Shown here: one piece after another, positions 6,713 through 28,034 of the stretch
Position numbering within the stretch: position 1 is the first letter of the stretch
Layout: each line of letters begins with the position of its first letter
Source: Candidatus Woesearchaeota archaeon
GTDB taxonomy: Archaea; Nanobdellota; Nanobdellia; Woesearchaeales; UBA119
Assembly (NCBI GenBank): GCA_030156615.1
Contig: JASGME010000011.1
Span: 1 to 35,470, forward strand
Length of the DNA stretch: 35,470 bases
Reading direction: 5' to 3'
The notes under the pieces: generated by a model
The model's input: only the letters and a program-made list of their open reading frames with translations
What the model was told of the DNA's origin: nothing
Database searches by the model: none
Program-made: the position numbers and the translations under genes

Positions 6713-7712
6713 CCAGCCTTTCTTTTAACTTTTCAAAGAAATAATCAGCATTTTTCTTCAAAAATTCCTCTCTTGAAGTATTGAATTCAACAGAAGGTTT
6801 TAAAGAAATCCTGTGAGCAAGAACCGATTCAATTGCCTCTCTAACATCATCTATATCCACTTCTTTCTTATTCTTTATGACAGCATTTGCCTGGGCCCTG
6901 TTATAAAGAGCTATAGTCGCCCTAACAGAAGGCTTCTTATCTATATCAGGATGTCCCCGAAGTTCCCTTATGAATCCTACTATCGCTTTTGAAATCTCCT
7001 CCCTTACATCAATCTCTTTCAATCCCTTTAAAGCCATAATTTCATGTTCCAACTCAAGGCTCTCAGGATAACCAACTGCAATAAAATCTGTCCTGTCAAC
7101 CAACACATCAGGCAAAGCTTCAGTGCTCCTGTCCATAGGATTCATAGTTCCTATAAAGAGAAAATCAGATTCAATATCTATGTCATAGCCGCCGATCGTT
7201 GCCTTCCTCTCAGCCAAAACCTGAAGCAAAGTATTCTGAAGCTTCTCAGGGCATCTATTAATCTCGTCAAAGAAAAGTATCTTCTTGTTAGCCTTAAAAA
7301 TCTTGCCGGGACTGAACGCCTTTATTGACATAGGCCCGAATTCCAGAGCCCTCTTAGGATCAATATCTCCAAAGAGGTCTTCCTCAGTTAGATCAGGGCT
7401 GCCCTGTATCCTGACAAATCTCTCCTCACCCTTTATCTTAATCTTCTTGGATTTTCCGCTCTTGCATAACTCGCACTGAGGCCTGTCTATAGAACAATGA
7501 AATGGGCAATCATAAAGCTCTATCTCGGGAAGCATTCTTGCAATGTTCAGTGCAAGAGTTGTTTTCCCAACACCCGGAGGACCAACAAGTATTATATGAT
7601 GTCCGGCAAACAATGCAGATTTAACATCATGCTTTGCCTTTTCAAGTCCTATTATATCATTAAATTCTACTCCTTTCCTGACAATCTCCCTAATCTCATT
7701 GCTTATATCCAT
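6699..7712 (-). CDS. MoxR/ChlI-type AAA+ ATPase
   Basis: This 337-residue AAA+ ATPase has Walker A GPPGVGKT (44-51), Walker B ILFFDEIN (145-152), the sensor GTMNPMD and the C-terminal lid helices. It matches the MoxR/magnesium-chelatase subunit I clade. A loop after Walker A carries C-x3-C-x6-C-x2-C (C69, C73, C80, C83) next to a His, a probable zinc site also seen in some chelatase-like members. Such ATPases remodel or insert cofactors into partner proteins through a VWA subunit, which is encoded just downstream. The ATG follows GGTGAAAAA, a ribosome-binding site typical of internal operon genes here. The client is unknown. Confidence 0.92.
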   Translation of the reverse strand: MDISNEIREIVRKGVEFNDIIGLEKAKHDVKSALFAGHHIILVGPPGVGKTTLALNIARMLPEIELYDCPFHCSIDRPQCELCKSGKSKKIKIKGEERFVRIQGSPDLTEEDLFGDIDPKRALEFGPMSIKAFSPGKIFKANKKILFFDEINRCPEKLQNTLLQVLAERKATIGGYDIDIESDFLFIGTMNPMDRSTEALPDVLVDRTDFIAVGYPESLELEHEIMALKGLKEIDVREEISKAIVGFIRELRGHPDIDKKPSVRATIALYNRAQANAVIKNKKEVDIDDVREAIESVLAHRISLKPSVEFNTSREEFLKKNADYFFEKLKERLGGPG

Positions 7713-25502: not shown

Positions 25503-26342
25503 ATGAAACATCTTAATGCATTTTACGATATTGATGATACATTGCTGGAAAGCCTTGACCTTTTTTTCTTTGTAGATAACCTTATGGCTCTTGAATACCT
25601 TAAAAAGATTAGAGGCTACGAAAAAAATAAAGATTTCTATGAAATTCTTTCAGGCCTGCCAGATTCTTTAAATGAAAACAAGAAGATAGAACAATATCTT
25701 GCAAGCCAACCAGAAATAAAAGAGTTAAATGAGTTCAAAACAGATATAAGGCAGACCGATGATAAAATAATGGAAAAATGGCCTAAGCAAGGCAAAAACC
25801 CTTTTTCTTTGGAAGGTTATAAAACAGCATTGGAAGAAATAACTGATAAATACAACCTTAATCTTAATGATGCAAGTATTAATGCATTATCAAGAATTCC
25901 TTTTCATTATCGATTAAATAAGAAGTATCCATTGCAGTCCATAAAAGAACTCCTTAAAGAATCTCTTGAATTTGATGTTAATCTATATATCTTATCCAAA
26001 GGGAGCTTCAAAGAACAAGCAAAAAAACTGGAATACATCAGGCTTAATGAAGTTATTCCATCAAAAAATCTTTATATCCTGTCCAAGAAGGATAAAAATG
26101 CCCTTAAAGAAATTATTGACTATGAATGCTTAGATAATCTATTAATAATAGGAAATTCACTAAAAGAAGATATCATGCCTGCGTTAGATTTAGATGGTAT
26201 AAATATAAGAGCACTCTGGGTAAGGCATGAAGATTACTTCAGCAAGGGATTAAACTCAAAAAAAGATAAAATAGAAAATAAGATTGAAGACTTCTCAAAT
26301 GAAACCTTTTCCAAGATAGTCAAAAACTATCTATATGATTAA
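25503..26342 (+). CDS. HAD-superfamily hydrolase
   Basis: This 279-residue protein has the HAD motifs: YDIDDTL (D9-x-D11-x-T13, nucleophile and acid/base), LYILSKGS (motif II Ser), a Lys in FKEQAKKLEY, and LLIIGNSLKEDI (acidic motif IV). A helical cap of about 130 residues sits between motifs I and II. Most such enzymes are phosphatases; the substrate is unknown. It converges with dnaG, and the two stop codons overlap by 4 bases (26339-26342). The upstream region shows no good TATA box, so it may be read through from the thioredoxin operon. Confidence 0.8.
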   Translation: MKHLNAFYDIDDTLLESLDLFFFVDNLMALEYLKKIRGYEKNKDFYEILSGLPDSLNENKKIEQYLASQPEIKELNEFKTDIRQTDDKIMEKWPKQGKNPFSLEGYKTALEEITDKYNLNLNDASINALSRIPFHYRLNKKYPLQSIKELLKESLEFDVNLYILSKGSFKEQAKKLEYIRLNEVIPSKNLYILSKKDKNALKEIIDYECLDNLLIIGNSLKEDIMPALDLDGINIRALWVRHEDYFSKGLNSKKDKIENKIEDFSNETFSKIVKNYLYD

Positions 26343-27652
26343 TCTTCAAGTTCATCGTAAGATATTATGATCCCTCTTCTGTTCTTGATACTATTATCTT
26401 TGTTCATAGCAACAACCATATTTACAGATGCCTTGTCAAGAGCCTCCGAAAGATCCTTATCTATTGCTCCATCAAGCACGACAGCGTAAATCTCATCCTT
26501 TATATCTTTCAATGTAGATGTCAGCTCTGAAATTGGTAGTTTTCCTAGTATAGCTAAGTTTCTGTCAAGGATATAGGCTGCCTTGCTCCCTAACAAGTCT
26601 TCTATCCTTTCTTTCAGAATTTTCTTGTCCTCTGATGATAGCTCTTTTTCATCGTTTTTCTCTCTCCTTGCATTAATTATCGGTTTCCTCATCTTGTTCT
26701 TGTCTTTGTTATCTCTGTTGTCCTTTTGGTTGTTGTTATGATTGTTGTTATTATACTGTTTATCCTGTTTCTTCGATTCATTTGTTTTATTATTTTCCTT
26801 TTCTTCCTTGTTCGTATCTATATTATGCTCAAGTGAGAACTGCTCAGCAGTAATCTTTCCTCTTAGGCATTTATGAATCTCCTTACTTGTAAGTTCTTCA
26901 ACTTCTTTTCCATCAGGTGCGACCGCAACAAAATCTATCTCTGCAAGAGTTAGCAGCTGTTTTAGGTTAAGTTGCCCTCCCCTGTCGCCATCAATAAATA
27001 CGGTTATCGTCTTCTTCTTTGACAAATCTATAATCGTTTGAGGCACAGAATTTCCGTTCATTGCAATAACATTTTTGAAGCCATACTTCAGCATGTTTAT
27101 TACATCGGCTCTTCCCTCAACGACAATGATTTCATCGCTCTCATCAATATTTGGCCCTGCAGCAAGTTTTTCCCTTCCATATTCTCTTATCTCCATTGTT
27201 CTAACTGACTTAGCAACCTCTTCTGCAATCTCCTGACTATCTGAACTTCCTTTGTTCATTAATCCAGAAAGCAGACTCTTTGCTCTCTCAATAATATACT
27301 TTCTCTTAGCAATTCTAACATCTTCAATACTTTCTACCTTGATTTTTGCATTACATGGTCCAATCCTCTCTATAACCTCTAAAGCAGCTGCAATTATAGA
27401 AGTCTCGGCCTTGTCCAAAGAAGAAGGAATAGTCATCGTGCCCTTTGTCTTTCCTCCTTTCGTTTCTATGTTGACTTCAATCCTGCCAATTCTTCCTCCA
27501 CGCTGGAGCTCTCTGAGCTCAAGGTCAGTTCCTAAAAGTCCTTCTGTTTGCCCAAATATGGCACCAATTACATCAGGCCTATCAACTACGCCATCTATCT
27601 CAATAGATGCATTAATTATGTATTTTGCTGAAACAATACTTATCTTTCCCAT
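26339..27652 (-). CDS. dnaG: Archaeal DnaG-like TOPRIM primase
   Basis: This 437-residue archaeal DnaG has the conserved N-terminal domain (KYIINASIEIDGVVDRPDVI, IFGQTEGLLG), the TOPRIM core with Glu179 in VVEGRADV and D221-G-D223 in FIDGDRGG, and a C-terminal helical domain. Archaeal DnaG is associated with the RNA exosome and has weak primase activity. An Asn/Asp/Lys-rich linker with N runs (about 285-335) separates TOPRIM from the C-terminal domain, longer and lower in complexity than I would expect. AGGAGG lies 8 bases before the ATG, the most canonical ribosome-binding site in this window. A TATA-like CCTTTAAATC lies at 27698-27689. Confidence 0.96.
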   Translation of the reverse strand: MGKISIVSAKYIINASIEIDGVVDRPDVIGAIFGQTEGLLGTDLELRELQRGGRIGRIEVNIETKGGKTKGTMTIPSSLDKAETSIIAAALEVIERIGPCNAKIKVESIEDVRIAKRKYIIERAKSLLSGLMNKGSSDSQEIAEEVAKSVRTMEIREYGREKLAAGPNIDESDEIIVVEGRADVINMLKYGFKNVIAMNGNSVPQTIIDLSKKKTITVFIDGDRGGQLNLKQLLTLAEIDFVAVAPDGKEVEELTSKEIHKCLRGKITAEQFSLEHNIDTNKEEKENNKTNESKKQDKQYNNNNHNNNQKDNRDNKDKNKMRKPIINARREKNDEKELSSEDKKILKERIEDLLGSKAAYILDRNLAILGKLPISELTSTLKDIKDEIYAVVLDGAIDKDLSEALDKASVNMVVAMNKDNSIKNRRGIIISYDELED

Positions 27653-27862
27653 TCTAAAAACCTCCTTTTTGGCCTTAACTCAGAATTAGATTTAAAGGGT
27701 AGCTATAACAACTGATTCCTTCTGCTAAACCTTAAATTCTTAAACTACGAACTTGTGAAAATGAATCATTGAAAGTTCTTCATATTACCCATCTATCTGA
27801 GTAAGCCTCTTTAATTATATTTTTTTATTCTTTTTATCTTTTTGTATTCTTCAAACATTGCT

Positions 27863-28005
27863 AATAAAAGATTGTTGCCCGCAACACTAACTCCCTAGTT
27901 CACAGCTTGAGTAAACTCGTGAGCTCCCCAGAGTACTCTCATGGCGGGCTGTCTGCAAAGGCTTTTGATTTTTTCATTGTCCCCTCAAAATCCTTGACCT
28001 TTGCA
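27863..28005 (-). ncRNA. Candidate structured non-coding RNA of unknown family
   Basis: The minus strand has a TATA box (28034-28026) about 25 bp before a long hairpin: TGCAAAGG (28005-27998) pairs with CCTTTGCA (27961-27954), and an inner TTTTGA (27990-27985) pairs with TCAAAA (27968-27963). Then GCCCGC (27949-27944) pairs with GCGGGC (27882-27877), enclosing three small hairpins: AGAG/CTCT, AGCT-GAG/CTC-AGCT and AACT/AGTT. A T-rich stretch TCTTTTATT (27871-27863) may end transcription. It is not tRNA, 5S rRNA, SRP RNA or RNase P RNA by any motif I can find, and neither strand has a plausible gene here. The rest of 27653-27862 holds only the dnaG promoter and ribosome-binding site. Confidence 0.5.
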
Positions 28006-28025
28006 ATTTATAGTAAATGCTTCTT

Positions 28026-28034
28026 CTTTATAAG
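28026..28034 (-). promoter_or_regulatory. TATA box of the candidate RNA
   Basis: Minus-strand CTTATAAAG is centred at 28030, about 25 bp before the first paired base of the predicted RNA (28005). It lies just past the stop codon of the upstream regulator gene. Confidence 0.5.

Follow-up and report, generated by a model that had tools for sequence, protein, structure and literature searches.

A structured segment lies on the minus strand between a regulator-like gene and dnaG in the 35,470-nucleotide stretch of archaeal DNA that we analysed (the window), and the locus raises the question of what kind of RNA, if any, it encodes. A sequence-only reading had described it as the gene of an orphan small RNA. 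We found that the RNA is very probably an archaeal box H/ACA guide RNA with two hairpins, the second of which would be aimed at helix 69 of 23S rRNA; this kind of RNA is already known, and the family itself is new to Rfam. The features of the locus are as follows.

28027 to 28033, minus strand: TATA box TTATAAA, read from the sequence, ~22-25 nt before the first paired base (28006/28005).
27950 to 28006, minus strand: hairpin 1, an H/ACA hairpin, from the minimum free energy fold; the same architecture is found in relatives with 17 of 19 pairs covarying.
27873 to 27951, minus strand: hairpin 2, the conserved H/ACA hairpin, matched by covariance model R1 (90 bits, E 6e-23) and showing covariation.
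27935 to 27940, minus strand: left guide GAGAGU, which can pair with ACUCUC in 23S helix 69, with a matched change in other orders.
27900 to 27926, minus strand: K-turn and apical hairpin, from invariant or nearly invariant columns of alignment A2 and C-stem counts.
27888 to 27892, minus strand: right guide AGUUA, which can pair with UAACU in helix 69, with an alternative register UAGU at 27889-27886.
27873 to 27875, minus strand: ACA box of hairpin 2, from the sequence and from ANA/NCA counts in relatives.
27863 to 27870, minus strand: T-rich stretch CTTTTATT, a possible terminator judged by sequence only.
26339 to 27652, minus strand: dnaG (NF003108, 496 bits), downstream of the RNA on the same strand.

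Between 28033 and 27863, the minus strand holds in order the TATA-like motif, hairpin 1, hairpin 2 with its closing stem GCCCGC/GCGGGC, and the T-rich tail. The promoter-like motif ahead of the fold and the possible end signal behind it lie where they had been proposed. The mature RNA probably extends from ~28006 to ~27870. In relatives that have hairpin 1, TATA-like motifs are found ~95-112 nt before hairpin 2; in relatives that lack it, the distance from such a motif to hairpin 2 is often 28-60 nt. The flanking genes also agree with their earlier description: the open reading frame upstream is weakly HTH-like and the gene downstream encodes DnaG. The upstream regulator gene is seen in few relatives only.

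Archaeal H/ACA hairpins have a lower stem of 7-9 bp, a GA stem of 8-11 bp and 14-16 nt from the pocket to the ACA box (PMC4652768, PMC7991803). The long first hairpin of the sequence-only reading is present in the window (paired region 28006-27953), with the correction that its end is a K-loop, in which GA at 27986-27985 faces GA at 27975-27974. Its lower stem, UUGCAAAGG/CCUUUGCAG, has 9 bp (28006-27998/27961-27953) and is followed by the guide arms UCAAG (27997-27993) and AAAAG (27966-27962) and by the upper stem GAUUUU/AAAAUC. An ACA stands straight after the lower stem at 27952-27950, and the distance from pocket to ACA is 14 nt in the window and mostly 15 nt in relatives.

The body of hairpin 2 spans 27949-27873, and its lower stem likewise has 9 bp (27949-27941/27887-27877), with a 2-nt bulge. 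The GC-only 6-bp stem (27949-27944 paired with 27882-27877) forms part of it. This stem had been drawn around three hairpins; what it encloses is a pocket-like internal loop, an upper stem (27933-27929/27897-27893) and one K-turn hairpin. The K-turn consists of GA at 27926-27925, GA at 27901-27900 and the 3-nt bulge UGU at 27904-27902, and its C-stem pairs GCU at 27924-27922 with AGC at 27907-27905. Directly after the lower stem is ACA in the window; in relatives this box reads ANA in 68 of 94 sequences of the order (NCA in the remaining 26) and in 19 of 20 sequences from other orders. From pocket to ACA we counted 17 contiguous nucleotides, 15 without the conserved 2-nt bulge and 14 in an alternative, overlapping fold (ACUC/GAGU), whose GA stem has 10 bp as compared to 9 bp in the main fold. 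Across 64 divergent sequences the main fold is better kept, with its pairs formed in 64/64, 64/64, 62/64, 58/63 and 53/63 sequences by several pair types; the alternative fold is still possible, its weakest pair being formed in 47/64. Both hairpins thus have the lower stem, the K-turn or K-loop and the ACA box of the class, and a bipartite rRNA match around an unpaired UN was found for hairpin 2 and, in relatives, for hairpin 1.

The folding energy of the 151 nt is modestly better than that of shuffled sequences (z -2.05; 8/200). Fold energy alone is not convincing, and we accepted the RNA as real because of its conservation. Plain DNA similarity recovered it in 14 of 39 related genomes, and a degenerate pattern search of GTDB genomes gave 57 loci, nearly all with Woesearchaeota, Nanoarchaeota, Nanoarchaeia or DPANN in their titles. 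One locus, on JAFCCF010000002.1, is titled Candidatus Aminicenantes bacterium and has both the RNA and an archaeal dnaG; it is probably a misplaced archaeal contig. Viral spread was considered because of two pattern matches in IMG/VR, one of which has no flanking structure and resembles ordinary coding sequence, and we treated both as chance.

From 53 sequences of the 3' hairpin, hairpin 2 (alignment A2), we built model R1, which has a match in 158 of the 193 genomes sampled from the order Woesearchaeales (116 of 135 among the good ones) and in 192 of the 279 from the phylum; 45 of the genomes listed belong to other orders of the class. The copy number is nearly always one per genome. Hairpin 1 was aligned from 25 relatives (alignment A3, model R2). 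Covariation in relatives, which had been suggested as a check on the two stems, turned out to be strong in both hairpins. In hairpin 2, 96.1% of cells are paired as compared to 23-41% for slid partners (lower stem 97.3%), 8 pairs are changed on both sides and the covariation score is 0.227 versus 0.092 when shuffled; in hairpin 1, pairing is 84.7% versus 36-44% (lower stem 86.5%), with double changes in 17 of 19 pairs; the controls leave some effect of relatedness in these figures, but the margin is large. Using R2, we found hairpin 1 immediately ahead of hairpin 2 in 49 of 93 loci of the order; among 20 loci of other orders it was upstream in none, and the single weak match there overlaps hairpin 2.

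No Rfam 15 family lies over the RNA at gathering threshold, the sole match in the window being a tRNA elsewhere, and nothing credible appears over the RNA even at E <= 10, nor in three relatives. (Elsewhere, a Woesearchaeales contig has a match of 57 bits to the Rfam RT-16 RNA at 7437-7627 on the plus strand of locus L018.) The idea of a new orphan family therefore survives in part: this is a real noncoding RNA family of the lineage, outside Rfam, but it is not an orphan, as it has H/ACA parts and an rRNA target. Conservation together with the lack of an Rfam match would also be expected of a small RNA of some other class, a reading that we consider highly improbable given that all main H/ACA parts are present and that the target changes together with the guide. 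Even less credible is that the copy in the window has decayed or arose by chance: the single-sequence z of only -2.05 and the lack of an rRNA target for hairpin 1 in this genus would suit such a copy, but its hairpin 2 scores 90 bits with the family model and keeps both guide arms.

To place hairpin 2 on rRNA, we scored candidate sites with an optional spacer between the target U and the right guide; when direct adjacency was required, helix 69 was missed. The arms GAGAGU and AGUUA are complementary to UAACU-AUA-ACUCUC in helix 69 of the 23S rRNA encoded by the same genome (E. coli U1915/U1917). In a scan of 23S and 16S rRNA, both registers rank helix 69 first, each with U1917 in the gap; the pairing around U1917 A1918 has 6 + 4 bp, which becomes 6 + 5 bp when one more spacer is allowed. 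Against rRNA, about 4% of shuffled guides reach an equal score, and the rRNA match alone is therefore moderate evidence.

The comparison between orders is the strong test of this match. The helix 69 sequence is identical in every genome of the order that we read, except in a second 23S rRNA of one genome (G060, contig 53); this second rRNA is very different, has AUUGUU in helix 69 and is probably contamination. In other orders, helix 69 reads UAACUAUA-AUUCUC and the left guide is GAGAAU. When guides aligned by the model were tabulated against the rRNA of the same genome, 21 genomes had ACUCUC with GAGAG, 9 had AUUCUC with GAGAA and there was no crossing among those scored (Fisher 7e-8), a p value that overstates independence because the change may be a single event. 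The change falls at exactly the predicted pair. Three further sequences of the order were scored as GCGAGA, which is GAGAGU read two bases early, and one genome (G037) has a divergent guide. Three additional genomes of other orders agree with the matching; one other-order locus (L194) carries GAGAGU, and a search for its 23S rRNA did not find it. We consider this strong comparative evidence for helix 69 as the predicted target of hairpin 2. Archaea are known to carry pseudouridines at 1915 and 1917 (positions 1956 and 1958 in H. marismortui), which have been ascribed to H/ACA guides (PMC2584109); for Haloferax, a single hairpin with alternative structures has been credited with both sites (PMC2584109, PMC4652768).

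In relatives, the hairpin 1 arms AAUGGGU and ACACUC are complementary to the A-loop, which reads GGGGGUGU-UC-ACCCAUU; the gap is the usual UN and falls at U2555 (E. coli numbering, from the alignment to the A-loop made in this analysis). None of 1000 shuffled pairs of guides scores as well as the consensus guides against the A-loop. When the guides of twelve genomes were compared with their own 23S rRNA, the A-loop was the best site in most of them (the comparison for one, G023, covered the wrong strand), and one genome with an altered A-loop stem has a matching guide, ACCGAU with AUUGGU. Hairpin 1 is present in about half of the order's loci, where its guides usually match, and would usually address, the A-loop.

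The window's own hairpin 1 gives a different result. In the 23S and 16S scan, no site fits both UCAAG and AAAAG, and the drifted guides of two other loci, L022 and L045, gave no convincing new site. The A-loop of the window's genome (around position 4090 of L075) reads GGGUGCUCACCC, with C at 2554 (E. coli number). This C is a change at a nearly universal position, and a genome of another order (G250) has it likewise. In the window's genus, hairpin 1 keeps the H/ACA fold, but its guides differ and have no rRNA match; it appears to have lost or changed its A-loop target, and it would be either retargeted or decaying.

We then considered the position of the RNA ahead of dnaG. In 52 of 54 loci, dnaG starts 106-568 nt downstream of the RNA on the same strand; in the remaining two, the sequence stops within 250 nt. 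Such fixed synteny throughout the order is unusual for a guide RNA. The leaders between RNA and dnaG contain a second conserved element: CUUGUUCU occurs in 33 of 52 of them as compared to 0.2 expected, and it usually pairs with AGARYAAG ~55-165 nt upstream (G-U variants included, arms of 8-14 bp) to form a helix whose interior is rich in ATTCATT. The element is seen, for example, in L011, L018, L045 and L048; the exact motif is absent from 27653-27872 of the window.

These observations could mean that the RNA acts in cis as the leader of the dnaG mRNA, either like a riboswitch or as a K-turn control element bound by L7Ae, with the rRNA complementarity being secondary. The strand, the distance to dnaG and the second helix all fit a leader, and K-turn control by L7Ae has been suggested in archaea (PMC5539422). 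We nevertheless consider a leader very unlikely, as the guide arms change together with helix 69, and a box ACA, a pocket and an optional second hairpin with its own rRNA match are unexpected for one. With the RNA taken as an H/ACA guide, guide and dnaG might still be functionally coupled, so that guide processing or the level of L7Ae would control dnaG expression. We proposed this coupling because of the fixed same-strand linkage and the second leader helix (AGARYAAG...CUUGUUCU), and we hold it to be unlikely, if less so than a leader. Archaeal DnaG is also a component of the exosome.

The genome of the window encodes a TruB/Cbf5 family protein, Nop10 and L7Ae family proteins; Gar1 was undetected there with a model that misses the Sulfolobus control too. 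In the mechanism that we propose, in which transcription, RNP assembly and modification are all inferred steps, Cbf5, Nop10, L7Ae (on the K-turn or K-loop) and probably Gar1 would bind each hairpin. The pocket of hairpin 2 would pair with 23S helix 69, and Cbf5 would convert U1917 to pseudouridine. U1915 would possibly be modified too through the alternative register, as proposed for Haloferax. In many relatives, hairpin 1 would act likewise on U2555 of the A-loop.

The locus thus represents a conserved RNA gene, absent from Rfam, that most of the sampled genomes carry in an archaeal group that is very large and for the most part uncultured. Judged by their guides, these reduced genomes appear to have retained the RNA-guided modification of helix 69 and probably, for about half of the order, that of the A-loop too. 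That guide and rRNA have changed in step between orders provides a natural test of their pairing, and the two covariance models, R1 and R2, ease annotation of the gene. Our search of the open-access literature, outside which most subscription journals lie, turned up no paper that describes such an RNA from Woesearchaeales.

Among known systems, several share the target region. Pyrococcus Pf7 stem III/Pab40 and Archaeoglobus Afu4 are guides for the 1915 equivalent in helix 69 (PMC2584109, PMC4652768), although Pf7 is a three-hairpin RNA. Haloferax volcanii HP2/Hvo2 is a proposed guide for the equivalents of both 1915 and 1917 by means of alternative structures, one model including a spacer of three nucleotides, as in the present RNA; in contrast, the other hairpin of HP1/HP2 (Hvo1/Hvo2) is aimed at the 2586 equivalent, not at the A-loop (PMC2584109, PMC4652768). 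The likeness of Pf7 stem III and Hvo2 to the present RNA is one of target, with no Rfam match at E <= 10. In eukaryotes, one H/ACA RNA (the snoRNAs snR191 and U19) serves both equivalent pseudouridines of helix 69 (PMC2584109), but eukaryotic H/ACA RNAs are without a K-turn (PMC7991803). The closest architecture is found in Nanoarchaeum equitans, a related archaeon with a small genome, which has a single H/ACA RNA of 159 nt, seen by RNA-seq, with two hairpins separated only by ACA, a K-turn in each, a box A promoter and a T-stretch (PMC3491384). That RNA lies between tyrS and NEQ392 and not before dnaG, and its targets were only predicted (PMC3491384). From this likeness in architecture, the RNA described here may be a homologue of the Nanoarchaeum equitans H/ACA RNA.
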